From the NCBI GenBank assembly GCA_010672965.1, contig JAAHFN010000007.1:374992-438991 (forward strand): a stretch of 64,000 bases of DNA, written 5' to 3'. Below, piece after piece: positions 13,721-56,640 of this stretch; the first letter of the stretch is position 1; every line of letters begins with the position of its first letter. The notes beneath the pieces are model-generated. The model was not told the DNA's origin, did no database searches, and saw nothing but the letters and a program-made list of their open reading frames with translations. Position numbers and translations under genes: made by a program. This DNA is from Oscillatoria sp. SIO1A7 (GTDB lineage: Bacteria; Cyanobacteriota; Cyanobacteriia; Cyanobacteriales; Laspinemataceae).

Positions 13721-14401
13721 ATGCAACTAGAAACCAAACCACCTCCAGTCCGCGCGGCCTTCGACCTAGAGCAGCTCGACATTCCGCCGGGAAATACCGT
13801 CCAATTACGCAATATATCCTGGGAGATGTTTGAAAATATCCTAGAAGCCCTAGGAGAAAGTTACGCAGTTAGGCTCGCTTATGACAATGGAATTTTGGAA
13901 TTTAAGATGCCACTACCAAAGCACGAAAGAGGCAAAGAAATTATTGGCGACTTAGTGAAGGCTCTCCTCGAAGAAATGGATATTGAGTTTTTGTCCCTAG
14001 GCTCTACCACTTTCAAGAACAAAAACATGGCACGCGGGATAGAACCAGACCAATGCTTCTATATAAAAAACGAAGCAGTTATCAGGGAACGGACGGACAT
14101 AGACCTAAGCCAAGACCCGCCTCCAGACTTGGCGATCGAGATTGACAATACTAGCGATTCCCGTACTAGATTTAACAATTACCAGGCTTTGGGAGTTCCA
14201 GAATTATGGCGATACGATGGGAAGGTGCTACAGATTAACGTGCTGCAAAAGGGAAAGTACGTTGAGTCTAGCGTCAGCCCAACTTTTCCCAAATTGCCAG
14301 CGATCGCCCAAACTATTGTTCGCCACGTTTTACAGAGCAAAACTGCAGGACGAACTGCAGCCAAAAAAGCATTTATCGCTTGGGTGCGAGAGCAATTGTA
14401 G
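13721..14401 (+). CDS. Uma2 family endonuclease, copy 1 of a duplicate pair
   Basis: A 226-residue Uma2/DUF820 protein. PDLAIEIDNTSDSRTRFNNY and GVPELWRYDGKVLQI supply the acidic and ExW...K elements of the fold. ATG at 13721 is preceded by an A-rich leader. Together with about 300-400 bp of upstream DNA it is a near copy of the gene at 15397. The first 60 or so residues are identical, as is the DNA upstream; after LEFKMPL the two proteins differ in scattered short blocks. This pattern fits duplication followed by partial gene conversion or selection on the central part. Confidence 0.85.
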   Translation: MQLETKPPPVRAAFDLEQLDIPPGNTVQLRNISWEMFENILEALGESYAVRLAYDNGILEFKMPLPKHERGKEIIGDLVKALLEEMDIEFLSLGSTTFKNKNMARGIEPDQCFYIKNEAVIRERTDIDLSQDPPPDLAIEIDNTSDSRTRFNNYQALGVPELWRYDGKVLQINVLQKGKYVESSVSPTFPKLPAIAQTIVRHVLQSKTAGRTAAKKAFIAWVREQL

Positions 14402-15396: not shown

Positions 15397-16074
15397 ATGC
15401 AACTAGAAACCAAACCACCTCCAGTCCGCGCGGCCTTCGACCTAGAGCAGCTCGACATTCCGCCGGGAAATACCGTCCAGTTACGGAATATCTCCTGGGA
15501 GATGTTTGAAAATATCCTAGAAGCCCTAGGAGAAAGTTACGCAGTTAGGCTCGCTTATGATAATGGAATTTTGGAATTTAAGATGCCACTATCGGGACAT
15601 GAAGACGACAAGGAAATGATTGGCGACTTAGTGAAAGCTCTCCTCGAAGAGCTGGATCTTGAATATAGAACTCTGGGCTCTACCACTTTTAAAAACAAAA
15701 ACATGGCACGCGGGGTCGAGCCAGACCAATGCTTCTATATAGAAAACGAATCGGCTATTAGAGGCAAGCGATCGCTCGACCTAAGCGTAGATCCTCCTCC
15801 AGATTTAGCAATTGAAATTGATAATACTAGCGATTCCCGCACTCGAATAGATAACTATGAAGCTTTGGCAGTGCCCGAACTCTGGCGATACGATGGCAAA
15901 AAGCTTCAGGTCAGCCGGCTGCAAAAGGGAAAGTACGTTGAGTCTGGCCTCAGTACAATTTTTCCCAATCCACAACTAATCGCACAAATTACCCAGTTCG
16001 TCCAAGAGAGCCAAACTCAAGGCAAAGTGGCAGCCAAAAAAGCATTTATCGCTTGGGTGCGAGAGCAATTGTAG
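15397..16074 (+). CDS. Uma2 family endonuclease, copy 2 of a duplicate pair
   Basis: A 225-residue paralogue of the protein at 13721, with the same opening residues and the same C-terminal KKAFIAWVREQL. Differences cluster in the middle (SGHEDDKEM in place of PKHERGKEI, and changes after QLQKGKYVES). The nuclease-core motifs PDLAIEIDNTSDSRTR and VPELWRYDGKKLQV are intact, so it is probably functional. The near-identical 5' regions imply shared regulation or a very recent duplication. Confidence 0.85.
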   Translation: MQLETKPPPVRAAFDLEQLDIPPGNTVQLRNISWEMFENILEALGESYAVRLAYDNGILEFKMPLSGHEDDKEMIGDLVKALLEELDLEYRTLGSTTFKNKNMARGVEPDQCFYIENESAIRGKRSLDLSVDPPPDLAIEIDNTSDSRTRIDNYEALAVPELWRYDGKKLQVSRLQKGKYVESGLSTIFPNPQLIAQITQFVQESQTQGKVAAKKAFIAWVREQL

Positions 16075-43605: not shown

Positions 43606-43944
43606 ATGGAGCTGACATTTGGAACGGTAATAAGACAGGCCCGCAAGGATAAGGGGTACAGCCAGCGGCAGCTTGCCAAGCTGCTTAATGTGGACTTCAC
43701 CTACCTGTCGAAACTAGAAAACGACCGGGCCGACTATGCCCCCAAGGAGGACGTGATTCGTTCCTTGGCCCGGGAACTGGACTTAGACGAAGAAGAGTCG
43801 ATCGTGCTGGCAGGACGCCTCCCCCAACAGTACGAAGCTTTTCTGAAACAAAACTATAAGGAGGTGCCGGCCCTGTTCCGGCGCTTGCAGGAGAATCCCG
43901 ATTTTGCCCAAAAAGTCTTTGAGTCGCTAAGCGAGGGGGAGTAA
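43606..43944 (+). CDS. XRE-family HTH transcriptional regulator
   Basis: A 112-residue regulator with a HTH_3 domain at residues 5-60 (IRQARKDKGYSQRQLAKLLN, then DFTYLSKLENDRADYAP) and a helical C-terminus. GGGAG lies nine bases before the ATG. Its stop codon overlaps the start of the ImmA/IrrE gene (TAATG), so the two are translated together. In such pairs the peptidase cleaves the repressor upon a signal, as with ImmR/ImmA. It probably represses itself and the divergent operon through the sites at 43490-43568. Confidence 0.92.
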   Translation: MELTFGTVIRQARKDKGYSQRQLAKLLNVDFTYLSKLENDRADYAPKEDVIRSLARELDLDEEESIVLAGRLPQQYEAFLKQNYKEVPALFRRLQENPDFAQKVFESLSEGE

Positions 43945-44600
43945 TGGCGAGGGTCTTCAAGGAGTATCGCTACTATACCAAGGAGGAAATAGAATATCGG
44001 GCCAATAATATTCTCAGGCGGATGCATCGGCGCGGTTCTCAATTTGCACCAAGCTGGCCTTTTGATGCCAGCTTGGTGGCTGACTTTTTAGATTTGGGTG
44101 TGGTGTGGGACTATATTCCCCCAGACGAGTACGGGCATATTGCCGCCCGAATTCTGCCCCTCCAGCAGCAAATCGAGATTAATGAGGCAATTTTGGACAA
44201 GCCTCAAGGATTTCAAGAATCGACTTTAGCCCATGAAATCGGCCATTGGGTGCTTCATGTTAACCAAGAAGTGGCGGAAGGTTCTGCCGAAGCTTCCGAG
44301 GAAGATTTGTTTGTTTGTCGAGGCAAGACAAATCTGCCTCAATTAGAATCAATTGAATGGCAAGCTCAGTATTTTGCGAGCTGTCTGCTAATGCCCCGGC
44401 ACGTTCTGGAAGAGAAAAGTCAAGAGCGGGATTTGACGCGGTGGCGGCATTTATATGAAATCCGAGAAGAGCTGGGAGTGAGTATCTCGAATCTGGTGAA
44501 TCGCCTGCAAGATTTGAAGTGGATTATAATTCCCCAAGGCACTCGGCAAATTTATCCCGGCGAAGCGGTAGTTAATGGTGAGATGCGATTGTTTGGCTAA
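43944..44600 (+). CDS. ImmA/IrrE family metallo-endopeptidase
   Basis: A 218-residue zinc peptidase of the COG2856 type. The HEIGH motif (H97-E98...H101) in TLAHEIGHWVLH is intact, and the later acidic residues (AQYFASCLLMPRHVL) follow the family pattern. The C-terminal part (HLYEIREELGVSISNLVNRLQDL) is the usual small helical end. Coupled to the XRE repressor gene with a 1-bp overlap, it should inactivate that repressor when induced. The signal is not known; DNA damage is typical for related pairs. Confidence 0.9.
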   Translation: MARVFKEYRYYTKEEIEYRANNILRRMHRRGSQFAPSWPFDASLVADFLDLGVVWDYIPPDEYGHIAARILPLQQQIEINEAILDKPQGFQESTLAHEIGHWVLHVNQEVAEGSAEASEEDLFVCRGKTNLPQLESIEWQAQYFASCLLMPRHVLEEKSQERDLTRWRHLYEIREELGVSISNLVNRLQDLKWIIIPQGTRQIYPGEAVVNGEMRLFG

Positions 44601-45767: not shown

Positions 45768-47156
45768 TCACTTCCTTAGTTCTACTATTGCTTCATAGAG
45801 CTTTTGAGACTTTTTCGCTTTGCCTACCCGAACGTCAGAGCGAATAATGCTATTGCCAACGCGGGTCGCACGGGGGATCTCGATTCTGACTAATTCGAGA
45901 CCCACAGATTCAGCTATTTTGCCAAAATATTGGTCGGTGGGTATCGAGACTCCTTGCAGGATGCTGTTGCCCACTACTACTAAGGCAGTGCCACCGGGCT
46001 TTAGCAGATTGACTATGCCCTTAGCTAATCTGTAGCAATCGTTAAAATAGGAAGCTGCATAGTTTGCCCAGCCACTACCGCCATAGATACCCTTTTCGGG
46101 ATTAAGCCCTCGTATAGTTTCTAAGCGATCGCCTAGATCCGTGTTTGGCAAAGCAAATTCTAAGTCGATGCGCTCTTGTCCTCGAACTGTTTGCCAAAAT
46201 TTGCCAAAATTTGCTGTTTCTAAGTGTTTGAGATCTTGAGGCTTCTGCGCAAATCCCAGCCAGTACAATTGCGGTCTGGTATTGCGATTGTAATGATAAT
46301 TATTCAAGTAGGGGGGTGAGGTCACGATAGAATCTACCGATTCGGGCTCTAAATAAGACGAGTAACGGAAAAAAGAATCCTGGATTATCTTGTGTTTTTG
46401 CCAAGAATCTCGATCGCAATCTAATCTAGGCTGGCGATCGCCATTCATACCCACCTCGCTCAACTGCTCCCGATACCAGGCAATGTCTTCTGCCATTTCC
46501 CTGAGTTTTCCTATAATTGCTTCTTCTACAGGGAAGTCGAGTATTTCTGCTTTGCCAGCCGTTACCCGCCTGCTCAAACTGGGTTCGTAAGAGTAATTCG
46601 AGTAGAGTACCATTGTCGAGGCAAAGGCGAGTCTAAATAGGTCTTTCAAGCGCGGATTGTCAATAGTTTGGATAAAATCCAGAGCGATCGCGACTTTGTG
46701 GAGTACCCGAGGGCTGTAAAATTCGGAGCGGGTTTTGAATCCTTTGGGGGATTGACTCTTGGGGAGATAGTTCGATGATATTTTATCGGCGTAGAATCTC
46801 TGGAAGTTGGCAATCTCGCCTTGCAAAGCTTCCAGAGGAATTTGATAAGCGCTGACTTTGACCCGAGAAGCCAGGGCAGCATAAGGGTTGATTTCAAAAC
46901 CAATGGCATTATCGCCATGCAGAACTGTTTCTACCAGAGCAGTCCCCACCCCACAAAAGGGATCTAAAATGGTATGGCGATTCTCGCCCCCACTTAGATT
47001 CAAAGCATCTCTAACAAAACTGCTGGCAAAACCGGCAATCCAAGGCACCCAGCGGTGAATGGGTAGAGTTTTGTTGCTGGCAAAGGCTGGGTCGTCGAAC
47101 GCCGAACCCCGCTTTTCCAGTAATAATTTTTGCCCAGGGTTTGGTTGAGGTTTCAT
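45768..47156 (-). CDS. DNA methyltransferase with SPPY motif
   Basis: A 462-residue amino-methyltransferase (N4-cytosine or N6-adenine type). The AdoMet motif is LDPFCGVGTALVETVLHGDNA, and the catalytic TSPPYLNNYHYNRNTRPQ lies in the second half, a permuted order with motif I first as in TRM11-like enzymes. ATG 47156 (MKPQPNPGQK) is taken; 29 more codons are open upstream. No classical restriction gene is next to it, but the pPIWI-RE cassette begins 1.26 kb away in divergent orientation. A self-marking role for that system is conceivable. Confidence 0.82.
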   Translation of the reverse strand: MKPQPNPGQKLLLEKRGSAFDDPAFASNKTLPIHRWVPWIAGFASSFVRDALNLSGGENRHTILDPFCGVGTALVETVLHGDNAIGFEINPYAALASRVKVSAYQIPLEALQGEIANFQRFYADKISSNYLPKSQSPKGFKTRSEFYSPRVLHKVAIALDFIQTIDNPRLKDLFRLAFASTMVLYSNYSYEPSLSRRVTAGKAEILDFPVEEAIIGKLREMAEDIAWYREQLSEVGMNGDRQPRLDCDRDSWQKHKIIQDSFFRYSSYLEPESVDSIVTSPPYLNNYHYNRNTRPQLYWLGFAQKPQDLKHLETANFGKFWQTVRGQERIDLEFALPNTDLGDRLETIRGLNPEKGIYGGSGWANYAASYFNDCYRLAKGIVNLLKPGGTALVVVGNSILQGVSIPTDQYFGKIAESVGLELVRIEIPRATRVGNSIIRSDVRVGKAKKSQKLYEAIVELRK

Positions 47157-47335
47157 TTTTCTGCACTTATGATGTTTGCGGGAAAGGCGGGAGTAGATCG
47201 CCCAAAACAGCCTCCCGACTTCTTGATCAAGAGTAGCATCCAAAAGTTATTCTAATCCTTCCCTAACTGAGCGATCGCTCTTTTATCCCAGGCTACGCGA
47301 TCGCTTAGTATCCCCGAGGCGATCGCCTTGCCAAT

Positions 47336-48078: not shown

Positions 48079-48411
48079 AAATCCTCCAGTGTTGAATGCC
48101 TCAATACCATTGTTAATTTTGGATATTGGATTTTTAATTCTATGTCCTTGCTAGGTATAAGGCGCTTGGCGATCGCCCGTTTTTTCACGGTCGATGAAAG
48201 TCTGAATCGCTTTCCTTACCCAGCAATTTTAAAAACGGTATAATTCGATTTTAGCATTAAAGCGAGAAACGGAGCGCTACTCCTACTTAGAAAGCCGTTA
48301 GGGTAGTCTGCCGCAGGCGATCGCCTAGCTAGATAGGGTAGTGTTGACGAAAAGGCCAACTTAGTTATATACTATCGGAGAAGCGATCGAGGTAAAGTCC
48401 AGGAAAAATTG
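48079..48411. other. Divergent region upstream of the pPIWI-RE cassette
   Basis: It has an AT-rich stretch and two HIP1-like sites. No terminator, operator repeat or RNA element was recognised. The promoter of the cassette must lie here; AGGAAAAATTG just before 48412 is the ribosome-binding site. Confidence 0.4.
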
Positions 48412-49524
48412 ATGACTGCAAGCGATAGCAAACCGACTGTATCGGATAGCGAGCTGACTCTACACCTGATTGCCACAGGTGTCGTTAAACTCTACGAAGC
48501 TGTTAAAAATGGCAAAGCCCCAAGCCTTCCTTACCCAGTCGAACTCCAGCGAGGACTAGATCGATTGGTCTTGGTCTGCTTGGGTCGCAAGGAAAAACCA
48601 CCCCAGGGCGTTCCAGATTTGCTTTCTTGGTGTCGCCGACCTTTAGCCGAATGGCCTTTGGAACTGCCAGAAGATGCAGGAACGGGAGACAAGTTGCTGG
48701 ACGGTCAGAGTCCTACTGGCATTTGCGATGAATGGGCGATCGCCAGTTCTGACGTTGAAGCGGAACTCACCCAGAACAAGCTGTTAATAAATGTTATGGA
48801 AGTCTGTAGGCCAGCAAAAGCCCCCGACTCCTACGTCGCATTCCGGCGTTTGCTTATTAGCGAACCCGTACTCACCGCATTTGATTTACTAAAACGCTGT
48901 AACGATCCGCTCTTAGAACGGCTCGACAAACAAATCCATGATGCCTACGAGCTTGCTCCTCAATCTTGTGCTTTGGAGGGTCAGTTTCACTGCTGCTCCC
49001 CCTGCGGCAATATCATGCTCCGTACTGTCAAAGGAGAATTGATTTGCGCGGAAGAGCGCTGTCGCGTCAAAGGTGTGGCAAAAGCAGGGCGTCAGATTGC
49101 CCAAAAAGAAGAGGTTTTCTGGCTAAAGCGAGGATTGCGACGCTTTATTGCCGCACCGGGTCTAGCCGAGCTAAGGTTAGAAGAGAAACTGAAAAAATTA
49201 GGATTGGAAGTGGAACTATGGCCTAATTTTGATAGCTACGACTTGCGGATTGTGTTTGCGGACGGAGAGGCTTGGGCGATTGATGTCAAAGATTGGGCAA
49301 ATCCATTTTTGCTGGCGCGGAAGCTGTCACAGAAGGTAAGCCAGCAAGAGCCTCTGATTCCATCTAATCCACCCTGGAGCAAAGCTTACTTTGTTTTTCC
49401 CGACGATCGCCGCCAGCAGCGTACCGATTATCTAAGAGCCTTTAAGCATAATTGTAATCTGCCCAAGGTTATTAAGGCAAAGTTTGAGAAAGACTTCATT
49501 AAAGATGTCAAAAGAAAGCTGTAG
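48412..49524 (+). CDS. pPIWI-RE-associated PD-(D/E)xK restriction-type endonuclease
   Basis: A 370-residue protein and first gene of the pPIWI-RE cassette. A zinc-ribbon-like unit is formed by C195-x2-C198 and C212-x4-C217. The C-terminal domain has ELRLEEKLKKLGLEVELWPN, D277 in YDLRIVF and D291-V292-K293 in WAIDVKDW, that is, the D-(D/E)xK core of REase-fold nucleases. This is the nuclease that accompanies pPIWI-RE proteins in the cassette described by Burroughs, Iyer and Aravind. The N-terminal half (about 180 residues) is not recognised. It is 12 bp from the helicase gene. The true start is ATG 48412, with AGGAA upstream. Confidence 0.82.
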   Translation: MTASDSKPTVSDSELTLHLIATGVVKLYEAVKNGKAPSLPYPVELQRGLDRLVLVCLGRKEKPPQGVPDLLSWCRRPLAEWPLELPEDAGTGDKLLDGQSPTGICDEWAIASSDVEAELTQNKLLINVMEVCRPAKAPDSYVAFRRLLISEPVLTAFDLLKRCNDPLLERLDKQIHDAYELAPQSCALEGQFHCCSPCGNIMLRTVKGELICAEERCRVKGVAKAGRQIAQKEEVFWLKRGLRRFIAAPGLAELRLEEKLKKLGLEVELWPNFDSYDLRIVFADGEAWAIDVKDWANPFLLARKLSQKVSQQEPLIPSNPPWSKAYFVFPDDRRQQRTDYLRAFKHNCNLPKVIKAKFEKDFIKDVKRKL

Positions 49525-49536
49525 AGAGAAAAGTAG

Positions 49537-52500
49537 ATGCGCGATACAAGTTCTTGGCGAGAACGGCTAAGCAATGCTCTGTGGAAAGTATGGCCGTCAG
49601 AAACAGATTTAAACAAAACAACATTTTGCGATGTCGAGCTGGGTCTTTATCTTTTATCTCAGCTAGCACCAGAAGCACCGGCAAAATCTCTGTGGGTGCT
49701 GTTGACCGGCTACCAGTTTCCGGTGACAGAAGCACAGAACTGGAGCGAAGAGCAGCGACATATGCTGGGTAATGCCCGCCATATTCTGACCCAGTTTAGA
49801 AGCGAATACAGTTGGGAGAAAGCGATTCGGCGCTATAGACAAATCAACGAGCTGGAGGTGCTTCGAGGCTACGATATAGATGAGAAACTAGAACATTTTT
49901 CTGCCCGGGAAGTTAGCATCTGCTCGGAACGGGAGGAGATTTACGCAGATACTCTGAGCAAACCCCTAAAACATAGAAGAAAGACGATAAAATGGGCTGA
50001 GGCGGGAAGCTATGAATGCCCAGACGGCAAATATCGAAGAACCGTTCGCATTCCTGAAGAACTGGTACTCCCGCTGCCAAAGGGTCACAATCTGGAGGGG
50101 AAAACTCAGAGAGAGGCGATCGCCGTTAGCTGGGAAGATCTAATGGAAACCGCACGCTGGATGGACAGTTTATCCGGCGATCGCTGGGAGCAGCGCCTAT
50201 CCAGAGTGCGCCTAGAGCTGTTTGACCCAGATAATGACAGCCTCGCCCCTGCGGAGACCCTGACCTTGGATGGATTAATGCACCTAATCGGCATGGTTTC
50301 TTCTGGGAAATCGACTTTGATGGACATTTTGGCAGTTTGGGCAGCAAAGCAAAAACTCCATGTAACCATAGTTGTTGGAGATGTCGTCGGAGCGCTCAAC
50401 AGAGCTAAATTATTTGCGCGATTGGGTATCTCCGTCGCTCCTATTTTAGGTGCTTCAAATCGGGAGCGCCACACCAATCGCCTGCATAGAACCCTGACTG
50501 CCGAGGAACCTTTGGCTCAACTAGAGCAGGAACACATTGGCTTCCAGTGGTTGAGTACCGCCTGTCCCCTCAGCGAACTGCGTAGCGATGTCAGCGTACC
50601 CTTTAAGATGGGCAAGCAGCCCTGCCTGAATCTGACGGCGATCGCCGATTCAGATGAGGAAAATAGCGATGGAGCAAATAAAAGCAAAACCCCCAAAACT
50701 TATGCCTGTCCTATTTATAGTGCTTGCCCATTTCACCAGGCACAGCGGGATTTAGTGGATGCTTCTATTTGGATTGCCACCCCAGCCAGTTTGGTTTATC
50801 CCCGCGTGGCACCGCAAATAAATTCCGAATACATCCGTTTTGCGGAGTTGGTTTATCGTCACAGCAATTTGGTAATTGTCGATGAAACCGACCAAGTACA
50901 GGTGCAGCTTGATAGCCTCTTCTGTCCCAGTCAGAAGTTATTCGGGAGTGGAGGGGATAGCTGGTTGGGTCAAATCCAGCAACAAGTGGTGCAGCAGCTC
51001 AATCAACAGGGACGCGGCCAACTTGCCGATACCGATGTTAATAGCTGGTGCCAAGCCCACGGTATGCTTCAAATGGCGATGAACCGTATCTATGCTCTTA
51101 TCTTCAAACAAGAGCCAGCACTGGATCCTTGGATTAAGCAAGAGCAATACTTTACCGATTGGCTCATTCTGTCCAAGCTGGCTATAAAACTCAGCGGCGC
51201 TCCTAAAGATAGTCGCGACAACCATTCGGGCTATCGCAAGCTAATGGGATTGTTTGAAAGCTATATAGACGATCCCCTGGGCAATAGAAGTAAATCTCGT
51301 CTGAGCGAACTAACTCAGCAAGCAATTCTCAAAGATACTAATGATAATTTGTTAGGCGAGGATCTCAAGCAATGGATTGTAGAAAATAAGCAGGCAGATG
51401 TAAGTCTGACGGAAGAACAGCTAAAAGAGGTAATATTACAGTTAGCATTTGCTTTGCTAGTGGCAGTTTTACAAAGCCTCATCAACCAATTGTTGCGCGA
51501 CTGGAAATACGTCGAGTCTCCTCTTAGGCTGGAAGGCCAGAGTTCCATGCTGTTCCATAGCCCGCCAAGGGACTATGAGGCCATTATTCCAGCAGCACCA
51601 ATGGGCAACGTGCTGGGCTTCCAGTATCTAAAATCTAGCGACAGCAAAGGAGGAGACTTGCGCTTTTTCAAGTGTATGGGTGTCGGTCGCTGGCTGTTGT
51701 TGCACCTGCACGAACTATTTGCTGCCGAAGGAATTGTTGGACCTCATGTTTTGTTGCTTTCCGGTACTAGCTGGGCGGGTACGTCGCCAGGGTATCACGT
51801 CCAAGTGCCAGTGGCGGGAGTGCTGCGTTCTCCCGAGGAAGAATTAAAGGCCATCGAGGATAGCACTTTTGAATTTAATCCTTTCTACGACAAAGAGGGA
51901 CGGCCGATTAGCGTTTCTGGTGCGGGACAAAGGCGCGTTGCGGCGCTCAAGGAAATACTCGATAAATTGGCAAAACCGGGCGGTTTAGGAGGAGATAGTA
52001 GGTTGGAACGGGAGCGAGACGAGCTTCCCGAGAGTCGCCAGCGTATCTTGTTGCTGGTCGGCAGTTACGACCAAGCAAAGGTGGCTCAAGAACACCTAGA
52101 AAACTTGCGCCCCGACTGGCGAGGCCAGACTGTCCGTCTGGTTCCAGACGATGACGAGTTTGAAAGTCAATGGCTGGGCAACGAGTCAAGCCTACAACGG
52201 GGAATCGTACATAAATTTGCCAGCACGGGAGCTTGGATTCTGATTGCCCCGTTGATGGCTATCGAGCGGGGGCATAATATTCTCAACGAGGAGAATAAGG
52301 CGGCAATTGGCGCGGCTTATTTTCTGGTTCGCCCTCATCCGCGACCCGATGACATCAGCTATGCGATTCATTCTATCGCTCGCTGGGCGATCGCCAATTA
52401 CGCCAATACGGCATTGCTGGCCAGCAAGTGCGAAGCCGGGTTGCCAACAATTGACGGAGCTGGGAATTCTTTCCGGGATCGGGCTTACCGACGCTGGCGC

Positions 52501-52869
52501 TATCTTCTCAGCCTGCCCATGATTTATAGTACCCTACCCAACAAAGATACCAACAGCGATCTGAAGGCAGTAAGCTGGAATCAGCTCGTTTCTATCTGGC
52601 AGGTCATCGGGCGATTGATACGCGGAGGAAGCCCAGCTAATGTAGTATTCTGCGACGCTGCTTTTGCACGCCGTACTGCCTTCCAAGAAGATCGGGGCGA
52701 CGAGCCACAAACCAGTCTTTTGGTTAGTATCAAACAACTGTTAAGTCCTTATTTCGCGACCGACTCTGAGAGTTGTATTACCGAGCGAGAAAGGGAATTA
52801 GTTAGGGCGCTTTATGGCCCGTTTTACTCTGCGATTAAAGATATAGGAGGCATTGATGAGGAGGTATGA
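49537..52869 (+). CDS. pPIWI-RE-associated DinG-like helicase
   Basis: A 1110-residue superfamily 2 helicase. Walker A has K258 in GMVSSGKST, motif II is D449-E450-T451-D452, and motif VI is Q1022-VIGRLIRGG with R1026 and R1029. Four cysteines, C343, C363, C391 and C397 (the last pair spaced C-x5-C), lie between motifs Ia and II, where DinG and XPD bind a 4Fe-4S cluster. The first 230 residues are unassigned. It is the middle gene of the cassette and overlaps the PIWI gene by 14 bp, so the products are probably made in fixed ratio. Substrate by inference: DNA or R-loop duplex at the PIWI target. Confidence 0.85.
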   Translation: MRDTSSWRERLSNALWKVWPSETDLNKTTFCDVELGLYLLSQLAPEAPAKSLWVLLTGYQFPVTEAQNWSEEQRHMLGNARHILTQFRSEYSWEKAIRRYRQINELEVLRGYDIDEKLEHFSAREVSICSEREEIYADTLSKPLKHRRKTIKWAEAGSYECPDGKYRRTVRIPEELVLPLPKGHNLEGKTQREAIAVSWEDLMETARWMDSLSGDRWEQRLSRVRLELFDPDNDSLAPAETLTLDGLMHLIGMVSSGKSTLMDILAVWAAKQKLHVTIVVGDVVGALNRAKLFARLGISVAPILGASNRERHTNRLHRTLTAEEPLAQLEQEHIGFQWLSTACPLSELRSDVSVPFKMGKQPCLNLTAIADSDEENSDGANKSKTPKTYACPIYSACPFHQAQRDLVDASIWIATPASLVYPRVAPQINSEYIRFAELVYRHSNLVIVDETDQVQVQLDSLFCPSQKLFGSGGDSWLGQIQQQVVQQLNQQGRGQLADTDVNSWCQAHGMLQMAMNRIYALIFKQEPALDPWIKQEQYFTDWLILSKLAIKLSGAPKDSRDNHSGYRKLMGLFESYIDDPLGNRSKSRLSELTQQAILKDTNDNLLGEDLKQWIVENKQADVSLTEEQLKEVILQLAFALLVAVLQSLINQLLRDWKYVESPLRLEGQSSMLFHSPPRDYEAIIPAAPMGNVLGFQYLKSSDSKGGDLRFFKCMGVGRWLLLHLHELFAAEGIVGPHVLLLSGTSWAGTSPGYHVQVPVAGVLRSPEEELKAIEDSTFEFNPFYDKEGRPISVSGAGQRRVAALKEILDKLAKPGGLGGDSRLERERDELPESRQRILLLVGSYDQAKVAQEHLENLRPDWRGQTVRLVPDDDEFESQWLGNESSLQRGIVHKFASTGAWILIAPLMAIERGHNILNEENKAAIGAAYFLVRPHPRPDDISYAIHSIARWAIANYANTALLASKCEAGLPTIDGAGNSFRDRAYRRWRYLLSLPMIYSTLPNKDTNSDLKAVSWNQLVSIWQVIGRLIRGGSPANVVFCDAAFARRTAFQEDRGDEPQTSLLVSIKQLLSPYFATDSESCITERERELVRALYGPFYSAIKDIGGIDEEV

Positions 52870-55540
52870 CCAATTGCGCACTCTGTCTTTCCGGCTGGTT
52901 TCCGGTAAGGAGATGGAGGAAAAAACTTTCTACGTTCTCAAGTTTCCAGAGCAATGGAAGTCAGAACTAAGAAACCTACAGGCCAAGCTAAACGGGCGAA
53001 ACCCCGAGAAAACTAGCGTGCCCATCGGCTCCTTGAACAAGGCCATGCGGGCGCTAGTTCCAGACCTAATTTACATTGCTCCCAATGCTGCTCGAAGTGG
53101 CGATTGCCCTTGGCTCTACAGCGATACGCCTGTCAATCCAGAGGCGCTGCATTTGATTATTTGCGCTTGGGCAAAAGTTCAGTTCTCCAAAGCTTCCGAG
53201 CAAAAGCGAAGCGAACTCCTGGGGGAACTGAAGGTTGAGGACTTGTGTTGGCAGCCAACTAAGCTGAATTTGTCGCAATGGACTACAGCCGCTAATGGCA
53301 CGGCCAAACTAGGGGGCGACGGTTACAACAATAGTTTTATTTTGGTTCCCCATATTTTGGCGGCCAAGTTCTCTCAAGATAATCAAGATAATACGCCCCT
53401 CGAATTTGGCTCAGAACCCCCCCTGCGCTTTCGCCGCGCGCCGCTCTCGATTGGAACCCACGGAGCAGAGTTAGTTTCTTGGGTTCCAATCAAACATGAG
53501 GACTGGTATTGGTCGGTGGTGATTACCTTCACCCTTCAAACCGTGCCTTTCCAAGACTTTCCGGTGCTGCACTGCGACCTCAGCGTCCGACGGTGGGCAA
53601 GCAAGCCAATTCGTTTTCTGCCCGGGGACAGAGAAACCAGCGTCTATCTGCTGACAAGCGTACCGTGGTTGGAGGAGCTGCACAACTCAAATAGCTTTCA
53701 GGTAGCGCCTATAACATCGGAGCGAGTGCCAGCATCAGAGCGAAAAGATGGAGAACCAGATTACCGTGCGATCTGGGGTAGTAATTTAGCAGCGTTACTG
53801 GATTGCCTCCAGCCTAAAAATCCGTTTCCTACTCCAGAGGAAATAAAGGAAAATCCACTATCGGCGCTTAACTTCAGCGACAGTCCTAATGCAGGGCTCG
53901 TTTACCGAAATGGTATCAAGCCAGAGCATGGTGTCGGTCCGGGTCTTGGCCCTCAAGATCGTCGCAATCTGGTAGAACAGATTGCGAAAGTGTTGGCACC
54001 GGATTGGCAATTTGTGGAAATGCCAGAAAGGGTTGACTTCGATAAATATTTGCCAACAACAATAGATTTGCCAAAACCAAAAAACGATTGGAAGCCAAAC
54101 GCCGATCGGCAAGAGAAACTCGAAGAGATGCAGTTGGTACTCCGCCGAGGCGTTAAAAATGCTATTGGCGATCGCCTGAAGGTAGAAGTCTGGTATCAAA
54201 GCGAATCAGCCCGAGATAATTTGATTGCAGCAGTTCGGTATTGTCTGGGAGTCCCGGAAGCGGCAGAGTTTCCCTACAAGTTTGACGACTTGGATCTAGC
54301 CCTAAACGTAAGCGCTAATCGCTTGGGGGCTCTTGGCGATGAGTTGAAACTAGATTCCGGAATTAAACAAAAAAAGGAACAACGGCGTCAGGCCATTGTC
54401 CGGCGCGGGGACGAAGTGAGAGAAAAGGCCGGCTTGGCATCAGTGGCGACAGTAGCCTTTGTTGAACTGCATGGTGCCGAACATTTTGGCCGTAATAAGG
54501 ATCCAAAGCAAGCTCTGCGACGAGGATTCGCCCAGGTCGGACGCCTAACGCAATTTATTACTGTGGATAATAAGAAACTCGTCCACAGGGGTATCAACGG
54601 ATTCCTAGATTTGTTGCGTCAGTTGGGCGTGCAAGCGGAACCGCTGAAGATAGCCATCCAACCTCCCGATGATAAACAAAAGAGCAAGCTGAATTTGGTA
54701 GAAAATAAAAAACAGAGTTTGCCCGAGAAGATCAACTATGTTGGCCTCTGGTTGATTAAGTTTAATTCGTCCACCAGTGCTGATGGTAGCACTCAGCGGG
54801 TGCCGGTAATGGTACATATGGCATCGGATACAACTGAAATTAAGGCGATCGCTCTTGGTTTTGATAGCTGGCTACCCTACAGAGAAGCGCTGCTCCGTAT
54901 TGCTGGAGAAGAAGTTCGGGGAGTTGCCAAGCTAGAAAAGGCTATGCCCTTTATCAAGGAACGACTGAGACGTTTTCCTAAAGATACGCTTCTACTCTGC
55001 CATGCTCAGAATCTGCGAAGGGCTTGGCCTTGGCTGCAAAATGGGCTTATTTCACCAGACGAAATCCGTTTCGGTAAAGAAAGCCCGTTGTCTGCGAAAA
55101 AGTTCAAGGGACTTCGAATTGTGCGCGTTCGCGATAGTCAGAGCAAGGAAACACCGGAGTGGTATGCTCAACAAGAGGAAAAACATGGGTTTACCGATGG
55201 AATTTTCCAAATGGGCGAACGAGTTTTTGCTAGTACCTACAATACGCCCAAGCAGTTTAAAAAGCAAAGTGTCAATCAATCTAAAGCAGCACCTTGGACA
55301 ACAAATAGAGGCAAGACTTACGACGCATCGCCGGAAGTACCTTACTGGAATCCGGGTATAGTAGAACTCACTGTAGCCTATACCCAGCCAGAGGATGAAA
55401 TCTGGCCTTGGGCGGCACTGACACATGAGTTGCGGCATATTGCGCTCCAGTATGACGAACCGCTTAAGTTACCTCTAGTGCTTCATCTCGCAAAGGAAAT
55501 GCAGGAGTATGTATCGCTTCTGGAGGTAGAGGAAGAATAA
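52856..55540 (+). CDS. pPIWI-RE protein (prokaryotic PIWI with conserved R and E)
   Basis: An 894-residue protein of the pPIWI-RE family, an Argonaute-related group. AGGAGG lies five bases before ATG 52856. The N-terminal 450 residues correspond to the family's own region; the RNase-H-like PIWI domain fills roughly residues 620-880 (HMASDTTEIKAIALGFDSWL, then LLLCHAQNLRRAWPWLQNG). Candidates for the family-defining residues are R757/R759 in RIVRVRDSQ and E858 in LTHELRHIALQYDEP. The metal-chelating DDE/H set of slicing Argonautes is not evident, so cleavage likely comes from the partner nuclease. The role is predicted defence against plasmids or phages. Confidence 0.85.
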   Translation: MRRYDQLRTLSFRLVSGKEMEEKTFYVLKFPEQWKSELRNLQAKLNGRNPEKTSVPIGSLNKAMRALVPDLIYIAPNAARSGDCPWLYSDTPVNPEALHLIICAWAKVQFSKASEQKRSELLGELKVEDLCWQPTKLNLSQWTTAANGTAKLGGDGYNNSFILVPHILAAKFSQDNQDNTPLEFGSEPPLRFRRAPLSIGTHGAELVSWVPIKHEDWYWSVVITFTLQTVPFQDFPVLHCDLSVRRWASKPIRFLPGDRETSVYLLTSVPWLEELHNSNSFQVAPITSERVPASERKDGEPDYRAIWGSNLAALLDCLQPKNPFPTPEEIKENPLSALNFSDSPNAGLVYRNGIKPEHGVGPGLGPQDRRNLVEQIAKVLAPDWQFVEMPERVDFDKYLPTTIDLPKPKNDWKPNADRQEKLEEMQLVLRRGVKNAIGDRLKVEVWYQSESARDNLIAAVRYCLGVPEAAEFPYKFDDLDLALNVSANRLGALGDELKLDSGIKQKKEQRRQAIVRRGDEVREKAGLASVATVAFVELHGAEHFGRNKDPKQALRRGFAQVGRLTQFITVDNKKLVHRGINGFLDLLRQLGVQAEPLKIAIQPPDDKQKSKLNLVENKKQSLPEKINYVGLWLIKFNSSTSADGSTQRVPVMVHMASDTTEIKAIALGFDSWLPYREALLRIAGEEVRGVAKLEKAMPFIKERLRRFPKDTLLLCHAQNLRRAWPWLQNGLISPDEIRFGKESPLSAKKFKGLRIVRVRDSQSKETPEWYAQQEEKHGFTDGIFQMGERVFASTYNTPKQFKKQSVNQSKAAPWTTNRGKTYDASPEVPYWNPGIVELTVAYTQPEDEIWPWAALTHELRHIALQYDEPLKLPLVLHLAKEMQEYVSLLEVEEE

Positions 55541-55573
55541 ATCATCTATTTAGGATCTAATCTTCCTCAGAAG

Positions 55574-55935
55574 AGCGATCGCTCTTTTACTCCCATAAAG
55601 CGATCGCTATTGTATTTTTCGATAGGCGATCGCTCTTTTATTCCCAGAAAGCGATCGCTCTTTTATTCCCAGAAAGCGATCGCTCTTTTATTCCCAGAAA
55701 GCGATCGCTCTTTTATTCCCAGAAAGCGATCGCTCTTTTATTCCCAGAAAGCGATCGCTCCTTTATCCCAGAAAGGCGAAAGGCGATCGCTGTTTTATTT
55801 TCCGACAGGCGATCGCTGTTTTATTTTCCGACAGGCGATCGCTCTTTTCCTCACCAGAAGGCGATCGCTCTTTTCCTCACCAGAAGGCGATCGCTATTGT
55901 ATTTTTCGATAGGCGATCGCTTTTTTCTTCCCAGA
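55574..55935. repeat. Tandem HIP1 array with 25-bp unit
   Basis: GCGATCGCTCTTTTATTCCC followed by AGAAA repeats with an exact 25-bp period from 55626 to 55775 (six units), and shorter runs of 25-28 bp variants (GACAG, CACCAGAAG, CGATAG joints) lie on either side: about 13 HIP1 sites in 360 bp. It is not a CRISPR array, because the interval between HIP1 sites does not vary like spacers. The gap to 56054 has nothing else. Further single units occur at 56655 and 56680-56715. Confidence 0.92.
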
Positions 55936-56054
55936 AAGCGATCTCCCTTTTTGCCTAGAAGCCCCTGCTGCTGTTGCCACACTAGCACCCTACTTGCCAA
56001 GCAACGAAAAAAACGCTAACATGATTTATGTCAAAAGGCCCTTGAGGTAACAAG

Positions 56055-56345
56055 ATGCTAGATCTAGCCAAAGATGTCGAATCCCTCACTAACTTCAAGC
56101 GCAATACCGCCTCCTACTTAGAGCGAATTAAGGAAAGCAGGCGTCCGCTCGTTCTTACAGTTGACGGTAAAGCCGAAGTCGTAGTCCAGGATGCCGAGTC
56201 ATACCAAAAATTACTGGAATTAGTCGATAGCATAGAGGCGATAGAGGGCATTCAGGCCGGTTTAAATGCAGTGCGAGAAGGACGCATTTTTCCAGCCAAG
56301 CAATCATTAAAAGAACTGAAACAAAAGCATGGAATATCGAGTTGA
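56055..56345 (+). CDS. Phd/YefM-family antitoxin
   Basis: A 96-residue antitoxin with SLTNFKRNTASYLERIKESR, VLTVDGKAEVVVQDAESYQK and a helical toxin-binding tail. The start follows TTGAGGTAACAAG with a GAGG site. The 3' end overlaps the ParE toxin gene by 17 bp. The pair is a type II toxin-antitoxin system at the right edge of the defence region. Confidence 0.9.
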   Translation: MLDLAKDVESLTNFKRNTASYLERIKESRRPLVLTVDGKAEVVVQDAESYQKLLELVDSIEAIEGIQAGLNAVREGRIFPAKQSLKELKQKHGISS

Positions 56346-56640
56346 AATTACCGATGTGGCTTTGGCAGAAGTCGAAGATGCTTATCTGTGGATAATTGAG
56401 CAAGTTTCCGCTGAAAGTGCCGAAAAGTGGATTGATGGTCTCACGGAGGCGATTGAATCCCTCAACAAAAGCCCAAGTCGATGTTCCTTCGCGCCAGAAA
56501 ACGAGGTTTTCCCCGAAGAAATACGACAACTATTATATGGAAAGGGGCGTGGAACGTATCGCATAATTTTTACGGTTTCAGAACCAATTGTTCGCATTTT
56601 GCACGTTCGTCATGCTCTTCGTCAGTCCCTAGAGCCATAA
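56329..56640 (+). CDS. RelE/ParE-family toxin
   Basis: A 103-residue toxin: YRVEITDVALAEVEDAYLWI, SAEKWIDGLTEAIESLNKSP and GTYRIIFTVSEPIVRILHVRHA are the family blocks. ParE members poison gyrase while RelE members cut mRNA; the sequence does not decide which. It overlaps its antitoxin gene. Confidence 0.88.
   Translation: MEYRVEITDVALAEVEDAYLWIIEQVSAESAEKWIDGLTEAIESLNKSPSRCSFAPENEVFPEEIRQLLYGKGRGTYRIIFTVSEPIVRILHVRHALRQSLEP

Follow-up and report, generated by a model that had tools for sequence, protein, structure and literature searches.

Three-gene pPIWI-RE systems were predicted in 2013 by Burroughs, Iyer and Aravind and are listed in PADLOC under the prefix Ppr. According to that report (PMC3702460), the triad is strictly ordered and has no associated methylase gene, some of its REase (restriction endonuclease) proteins bear an N-terminal helix–turn–helix (HTH), the N-terminal lobe of the PIWI protein could not be related to known Argonaute domains and the role in defence is an inference. 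The published PIWI-RE biochemistry found in the literature concerns a single protein, PsPIWI-RE of Pseudomonas stutzeri. It binds both RNA and DNA guides, uses the former to cut single-stranded DNA and the latter to cut RNA, and is reported to co-occur with DinG; a change of either catalytic Asp abolishes its DNA cutting or, in the wording of the abstract, significantly reduces it (PMC10991935). The stretch of DNA analysed here (the window; 64,000 nucleotides from Oscillatoria sp. SIO1A7, positions 374992–438991 of its contig in a 9.08 Mb genome of 182 contigs) carries three intact genes at 48412–55540 on the + strand. By profile matches and gene order, this cassette is assigned to the pPIWI-RE family as a complete triad; the kind was already described in 2013, and the cassette is a further, plain member of it. 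PsPIWI-RE has two catalytic Asp residues, whereas the PIWI protein of the window has neither, and an intact cassette of this composition makes the question of the cutting subunit testable.

Each domain of the three proteins scores above its curated Pfam cut-off, and the PADLOC models PprRE (3.3e-72), PprDinG (5.2e-238) and PprPIWI (3.3e-147) match as well; NCBIfam gave zero matches for all three proteins at E 0.1. The initial annotation had named the family, the domain set and the gene order, and these are borne out by the profiles (Y and REase in protein 1, Z in protein 2, and X, MID and RNaseH in protein 3), by the relatives and by the structure models of proteins 1 and 3. Its description of three intact, tightly packed, co-directional genes with a 12-bp gap and a 14-bp overlap proved exact to the base in open reading frame (ORF) calling. 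The ORF of gene 1 spans 48409–49524 (371 amino acids (aa) from a TTG start, 370 aa from ATG 48412), that of gene 2 spans 49537–52869 (1110 aa, ATG start) and that of gene 3 spans 52853–55540 (895 aa from a TTG start, 894 aa from ATG 52856); all are on the + strand and uninterrupted from start to stop. Genes 1 and 2 are separated by 49525–49536, and the overlap of genes 2 and 3 has the length named above if gene 3 starts at ATG 52856. The window thus shows the RE–DinG–PIWI order with abutting or overlapping genes by which a three-gene system is recognised. It shares domains, gene order, packing and the R and E residues with pPIWI-RE systems, but its REase protein is without the N-terminal HTH of some published members, and its PIWI protein has lost the acids of both catalytic strands. 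Matches for all three genes were found in 92 of the 98 loci examined, and in 91 of those 92 the order RE–helicase–PIWI is kept on one strand, the exception being L113, where the RE match lies within the helicase ORF. The counts of actinobacterial and other loci given below are based on the best 80 of 280 relatives from a helicase-profile scan of a species-genome collection (62 Actinomycetota, 11 Cyanobacteriota, 5 Chloroflexota, 1 Bacillota and 1 Bacteroidota).

The Argonaute relationship that the initial annotation had proposed for the 894-residue protein holds in structure as well as in profiles, both the pPIWI_RE domains and the Argonaute/PIWI fold being significant. The AlphaFold model of gene 3 (predicted local distance difference test (pLDDT) 88.6, predicted template modelling score 0.90) matched 102 PDB chains in Foldseek at E ≤ 1e-3, and 50 of the 50 matches listed are Argonaute/PIWI proteins or complexes with one. 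The alignment with Thermus thermophilus Argonaute (Z 15.7, 516 residues, root-mean-square deviation (rmsd) 5.9) reaches from model residue 2 to 888, so the N-terminal lobe is at least partly covered too. A pPIWI-RE protein is recognised by an extra helical element past the first three β strands of the RNase H fold; in the model, helices 675–683 and 693–705, between strands 662–666 and 711–716, are candidates for it. The window PIWI shares its fold with long prokaryotic Argonautes at Z up to 15.7, but identity is about 8–15% among the matches listed, the N-terminal family X differs and the Pfam Piwi profile PF02171 finds no match in protein 3 (E up to 0.1). PF02171 also has no match in the host genome, and the control matched in 1 of 14 genomes. 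A sequence search of the PDB returned no solved relatives for the PIWI or REase proteins and profiles.

Strand 627–636 (β1) of the window PIWI contains zero acidic residues, and His716 occupies the expected position of the β4 Asp. The survey of related PIWIs covered 88 of the 98 loci, with ORFs of at least 800 aa (L023, L026, L029, L051, L053, L059, L061, L064, L081 and L114 were left out). The acidic pair is absent in 77 of the 88 when a D or E anywhere in β1 is counted; this wide count was used because the Argonaute Asp position may be W632 and not N627. In the narrow count, with the N627 column, Asp stands at both chosen columns in 1 of 88, and the β4 residue is His in 56. The MID residues K551, R555, Q566 and R588, which we take from spacing to be the counterpart of the Argonaute 5′-phosphate pocket, are kept in 79, 87, 80 and 81 of the 88 PIWIs, respectively, and H857 of the last helix in 81. 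Among 38 proteins, R754 is invariant and R757 and E837 are nearly so, with E in 82 of the 88; the choice between R754 and R757 as the conserved R of the family is a judgement by spacing.

In gene 1, the Arg of the Y domain is present in all 92 RE proteins surveyed (92 of 93 matches, L113 being left out for its low score). The active-site residues of the REase, E253, D277, D291 and K293, were assigned by the PD-(D/E)XK pattern and are kept in 92, 86, 89 and 88 of the 92 proteins, with all four together in 86; the structure model of this protein has a mean pLDDT of 91.5. The helicase of gene 2 retains its helicase motifs, and its four-cysteine region, judged from the invariant residues, is a probable iron–sulphur cluster. 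The term ‘DinG-like’, used for it in the initial annotation, is upheld by the PprDinG and Z profiles, by the motifs and by a weak match of the type IV CRISPR DinG profile, at 0.0032 in the window protein; three of nine members are matched, the strongest at 1.9e-6. In a PDB sequence search with the helicase profile, the matches below E 0.01 are P-loop stretches of RecA and reverse gyrase.

Because the PIWI acids are lost while the MID pocket and the REase site are kept, recruitment may be assigned to the PIWI protein and cutting to the REase. With moderate confidence, we therefore favour a mechanism in which a guide- or hybrid-bound PIWI that cannot cut recruits the helicase, and the REase of gene 1 cuts foreign DNA. 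The gene 3 protein would bind a short guide strand or an RNA–DNA hybrid via the MID pocket and would recognise invading, transcribed or replicating DNA. Unable to cut, it would recruit the ATP-driven, iron–sulphur superfamily 2 (SF2) helicase of gene 2, which would open the DNA, and the PD-(D/E)XK nuclease of gene 1 would cut it. Guide binding, the order of recruitment, the foreign-DNA target and defence itself are predictions. The published guide binding and Asp-dependent cutting of PsPIWI-RE give this scheme an experimental footing, and the patchy, mobile distribution described below speaks for it as well.

Several observations weigh against this mechanism. Six of the 92 REase proteins (L075, L085, L116, L117, L121 and L126) are without part of the active site, and the REase is therefore not the cutter in every locus. 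Eleven of the 88 related PIWIs, by the widest count, retain acidic residues in both strands, and the proportion of inactive PIWIs may be different in the family at large because a helicase profile near that of the window was used to collect the relatives. For the gene 2 protein, none of the general Pfam helicase models exceeded the cut-off. PsPIWI-RE is catalytically active, and its deletion lowered survival of ciprofloxacin and gave filaments, which is not a defence phenotype (PMC10991935). The three-gene systems have been a prediction since 2013; no functional test of them, and no experiment showing defence by any of them, was found in the literature. Finally, no guide source was found in the window, with 0 Rfam matches at the gathering threshold.

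The last of these observations, together with the absence of all five modelled recurring actinobacterial neighbour families from the 18 non-actinobacterial loci, favours a hybrid sensor without stored guides, a model proposed by Burroughs et al. (PMC3702460). The PIWI would directly sense R-loops formed by the invader in transcription or replication, the helicase would unwind them and the REase would cut; that PsPIWI-RE cut solely with mixed RNA/DNA guide–target pairs (PMC10991935) agrees with such a sensor. However, the MID pocket is strongly conserved, suggesting 5′-end anchoring of a strand, and an extra nuclease of actinobacterial relatives, described below, could make guides; we consider the guide-free sensor a tentative and rather unlikely alternative to the guide- or hybrid-bound recruiter.

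The system is patchy and mobile in its distribution. The RNaseH_pPIWI_RE profile matches in 12 of 386 genomes of the phylum and in 4 of 14 genomes of the family, the host being included in both counts. A second, distant, intact triad is present in the host genome (G000:C13:14866-22130; L021 6621-14179), with a REase of 460 aa, a helicase of 1195 aa and a PIWI of 899 aa; the helicases of the two host triads are about 31% identical. The second REase has an extra N-terminal stretch that is HTH-like by eye, and Pfam found no HTH in it. Two relatives of the same family carry one type each: G393 has a window-type triad (56–69% identity) and G395 a triad of the second type (50–62% identity). In a tblastx comparison of the window with G393, all 40 matches listed fall inside the cassette, though weaker similarity of the flanks could remain hidden. 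PIWI relatives occur in nine plasmid records, seven of them from Nostoc, Calothrix and Aulosira, and degraded cyanobacterial copies were found at L023, L026 and L029. For a pair of Nostoc plasmids (L017/L040), synonymous divergence (dS) is 0.19 in the PIWI gene against 0.61 in the helicase and 0.56 in the REase gene, which suggests recombination inside the cassette.

This distribution bears on the alternative that the system serves not defence but housekeeping, either under replication stress or in the segregation of chromosomes. The ciprofloxacin and filamentation phenotypes of the P. stutzeri deletion are in line with such a role, as is the action of DinG helicases on R-loops in replication (PMC3702460). 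The patchy spread, the carriage on plasmids, the two distant copies in one genome and the degraded copies argue against it, and we regard it as improbable. As to ancestry, a helicase tree of 47 of the 98 helicases, with Shimodaira–Hasegawa-like approximate likelihood ratio test (SH-aLRT) support alone, groups the window with Hormoscilla, Amazonocrinis, Calothrix and Mastigocoleus (support 100); this clade stands beside other cyanobacteria (95) and then Chloroflexota (99), and several other rows are long-branched and of unsure placement. A phage origin was considered and rejected: none of 50,697 phage records matched the PIWI protein in tblastn, and viral contigs yielded 0 confirmed relatives from 75 pattern matches of the helicase profile. 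In genome contigs, a first scan using the PIWI protein alone gave no match. The downstream gene has a counterpart of 72% identity in G229, yet beside that counterpart just a 30-bp repeat aligned and no empty site could be defined. The GC content of the cassette (0.496) is near that of the window (0.479), so composition gives no sign of recent arrival.

A cassette whose PIWI has lost its catalytic residues, in a group where some cyanobacterial copies (L023, L026 and L029) are broken, might be a non-functional remnant of a mobile element. This is very improbable for the window, where the frames are intact and the nuclease and helicase motifs are kept, and the loss of the PIWI acids is common to several phyla. 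The ratio of nonsynonymous to synonymous divergence (ω) against the Hormoscilla copy is well below 1 for all three genes (about 0.20 for PIWI, 0.14 for the helicase and 0.13 for RE), indicating purifying selection; these values are rough because dS, at about 1.5–1.6, is close to saturation.

Outside the family, the DdmDE and ApsAB systems share with the window an Argonaute-like protein with a presumed role in target recognition, an SF2 helicase and a PD-(D/E)XK nuclease. According to PMC11096173, ApsA, a relative of DdmD, has the helicase motifs GFGKS, DELH, SAT and QAVGRVER; its nuclease site reads D..DVK, and the Argonaute-like protein paired with it requires the lysine of the MID pocket. 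The window triad shows a similar set spread over separate genes, with D277..DVK293 in gene 1; helicase and nuclease are joined in one protein in DdmD and ApsA, whereas in the window they are two genes, with the nuclease first. (A review, PMC12904381, swaps the names DdmD and DdmE in its text; the naming here follows PMC11096173 and the PDB titles.) The best Foldseek match of the gene 1 model is DdmD of L. casei, which at 4.4e-3 is not strong. In a second structural comparison, DdmD accounts for 13 of the top 17 rows (180–207 residues, rmsd 4.4–5.3, Z 7.3–8.7), and mostly model residues 115–370 are aligned on chain residues 920–1188, of V. cholerae or L. casei where named. The other 37 matches listed cover 86–154 residues, the top row being Upx at Z 9.4, in the nuclease core only. 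HMMER found no match to the PDB chains of DdmD, and no DdmD model is among the PADLOC matches. The models are thus suggestive of a resemblance between the gene 1 protein and the nuclease region of DdmD over about 200 residues, which is kept as a lead because a top Z of 7–8 often arises between proteins that are not truly related.

Type IV-A CRISPR-Cas with CasDinG, compared by description, likewise combines a guided complex with a DinG helicase, though without an Argonaute; the target DNA is perhaps degraded by another nuclease (PMC11981726). The same paper describes a DinG-like protein of Caldilineales with a C-terminal Ago-like RNase H domain, a fusion from which it follows that DinG-like and Ago-like parts can act as one. 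Our guess is that this protein is a pPIWI-RE relative.

In Actinomycetota, the triad is accompanied by a fourth gene. A PD-(D/E)XK gene of the PDDEXK_1 type immediately precedes the REase gene, in the same orientation, in 58 of the 62 actinobacterial loci, and in 0 of the 18 non-actinobacterial ones. All 58 are on the helicase strand, each ending within 1800 bp upstream of the helicase ORF; in most loci the gene overlaps the REase gene, which is unsure, as the starts are those of the longest ORFs. Two examples match Pfam PDDEXK_1 at 9.1e-27 and 1.1e-24, a type that is AddB/Cas4-like, and a pattern of D, ExK and CxxCxxxxxC is conserved in 26 of the 26 proteins aligned to at least 95%. Of the four loci without the gene, two (L093 and L096) make up a branch of their own; L064 starts inside the helicase, and L113 has its RE match in the helicase ORF. 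The nuclease occurs across five named families, and no report of it was found in the PIWI-RE literature, most of which was not examined in full text. An HTH-N6 DNA methylase is found near the triad in 31 of the 62 loci and a Ser/Thr kinase in 30, with both in 25; these counts and that of the nuclease owe something to shared synteny because many loci are Streptomyces. Beside another group of triads, mostly in Streptomyces, are two protein families without a Pfam match (L066 6184-7059 and 3461-5845; 13 and 12 of the 62 loci).

The fourth gene is a possible handle on guide making. A speculative reading, to which we give limited credence, is that pPIWI-RE triads are the split-gene counterpart of DdmDE/ApsAB and act mainly against plasmids. 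A cutting-dead, guide-loaded Argonaute would hand DNA to a helicase and a DdmD-type nuclease; in Actinomycetota, the Cas4/AddB-like iron–sulphur nuclease would make guides or process ends, and the methylase, in about half of the loci, and about as often the kinase, would mark self versus foreign. If true, the relationship with DdmD would join the triads to anti-plasmid systems.

Table 1. Features of the pPIWI-RE cassette in window coordinates, followed by examples of additional genes in actinobacterial loci.
Feature	Position	Strand	Evidence
Promoter candidate, sigma-70-like, TTGACG-18-TATACT, upstream of gene 1	48344..48373	+	10/12 consensus bases, weak evidence
Gene 1, PprRE: Y domain, zinc ribbon and PD-(D/E)XK nuclease, 370 aa	48412..49524	+	Pfam, PADLOC
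Y domain (pPIWI_RE_Y), invariant Arg145	48460..48876	+	E 1.9e-38
Zinc-ribbon cysteines C195, C198, C212, C217 (370-aa numbering)	48994..49062	+	kept in 92, 91, 88, 88 of 92
REase domain	49159..49518	+	Pfam E 2.4e-33
Gene 2, PprDinG: Z domain and SF2 (DinG/XPD-like) helicase, 1110 aa	49537..52869	+	pPIWI_RE_Z 3.3e-43, PprDinG 5.2e-238
Motif I (Walker A, GMVSSGKST, residues 252–260)	50290..50316	+	G252, G257, K258 invariant 9/9
Four-cysteine region C343, C363, C391, C397	50563..50727	+	all four invariant in 9/9 helicases
Motif II (VDETDQVQ, D449 E450)	50878..50901	+	invariant 9/9
Motif VI (QVIGRLIR, R1026, R1029)	52600..52623	+	both Arg invariant 9/9
Ribosome-binding site AGGAGG of gene 3	52845..52850	+	inside 3′ end of gene 2, sequence reading
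Gene 3, pPIWI-RE protein, 894 aa	52856..55540	+	Pfam, PADLOC
X domain (N-terminal lobe)	52916..54121	+	pPIWI_RE_X 1.5e-76
MID domain, pocket residues K551, R555, Q566, R588	54350..54643	+	E 5e-20
RNase H/PIWI domain	54737..55513	+	Pfam E 2.3e-51; R757 and E837 present
Fourth gene, actinobacterial examples	L068 7106-8836; L088 7097-8848		
Neighbours, actinobacterial examples (HTH-N6 DNA methylase / Ser/Thr kinase)	L089 3290-5416; L100 5367-6857		

The weight of the promoter candidate is limited by the 13 promoter-like sites in the same region, against 9.1 ± 2.9 in shuffles. The identified neighbours of the cassette are ordinary. On its upstream side are a methylase and an XRE + IrrE pair, on its downstream side a Phd/YefM–ParE pair and a DUF2330 gene. 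None of the window neighbours within 7 kb belongs to a recurring neighbour cluster (blastp 1e-6, 60% overlap). The methylase, a lone N6/N4 DNA methylase at 45768–47243 on the opposite strand, was considered as a part of the system and rejected, as it does not recur beside relatives. The XRE regulator and the IrrE-like peptidase (CapP-like, PADLOC 1.5e-17) lie at 43606–44600. At the Amazonocrinis locus L048, a pair 285 bp from the cassette is weakly similar to them (2.3e-6 and 6.9e-4), and because this likeness is weak the pair is not counted as a component.

The Phd/YefM antitoxin and ParE toxin genes are found at 56055–56640. Directly 3′ of the PIWI gene, at 55563–55951, there is a 25-bp tandem repeat of 15 copies that carries the HIP1 word GCGATCGC; the window as a whole contains 117 HIP1 sites, where 0.8 would be expected. 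Farther away, two nearby similar genes at 13721–14401 and 15397–16074 encode members of one protein family that are alike in their first part.

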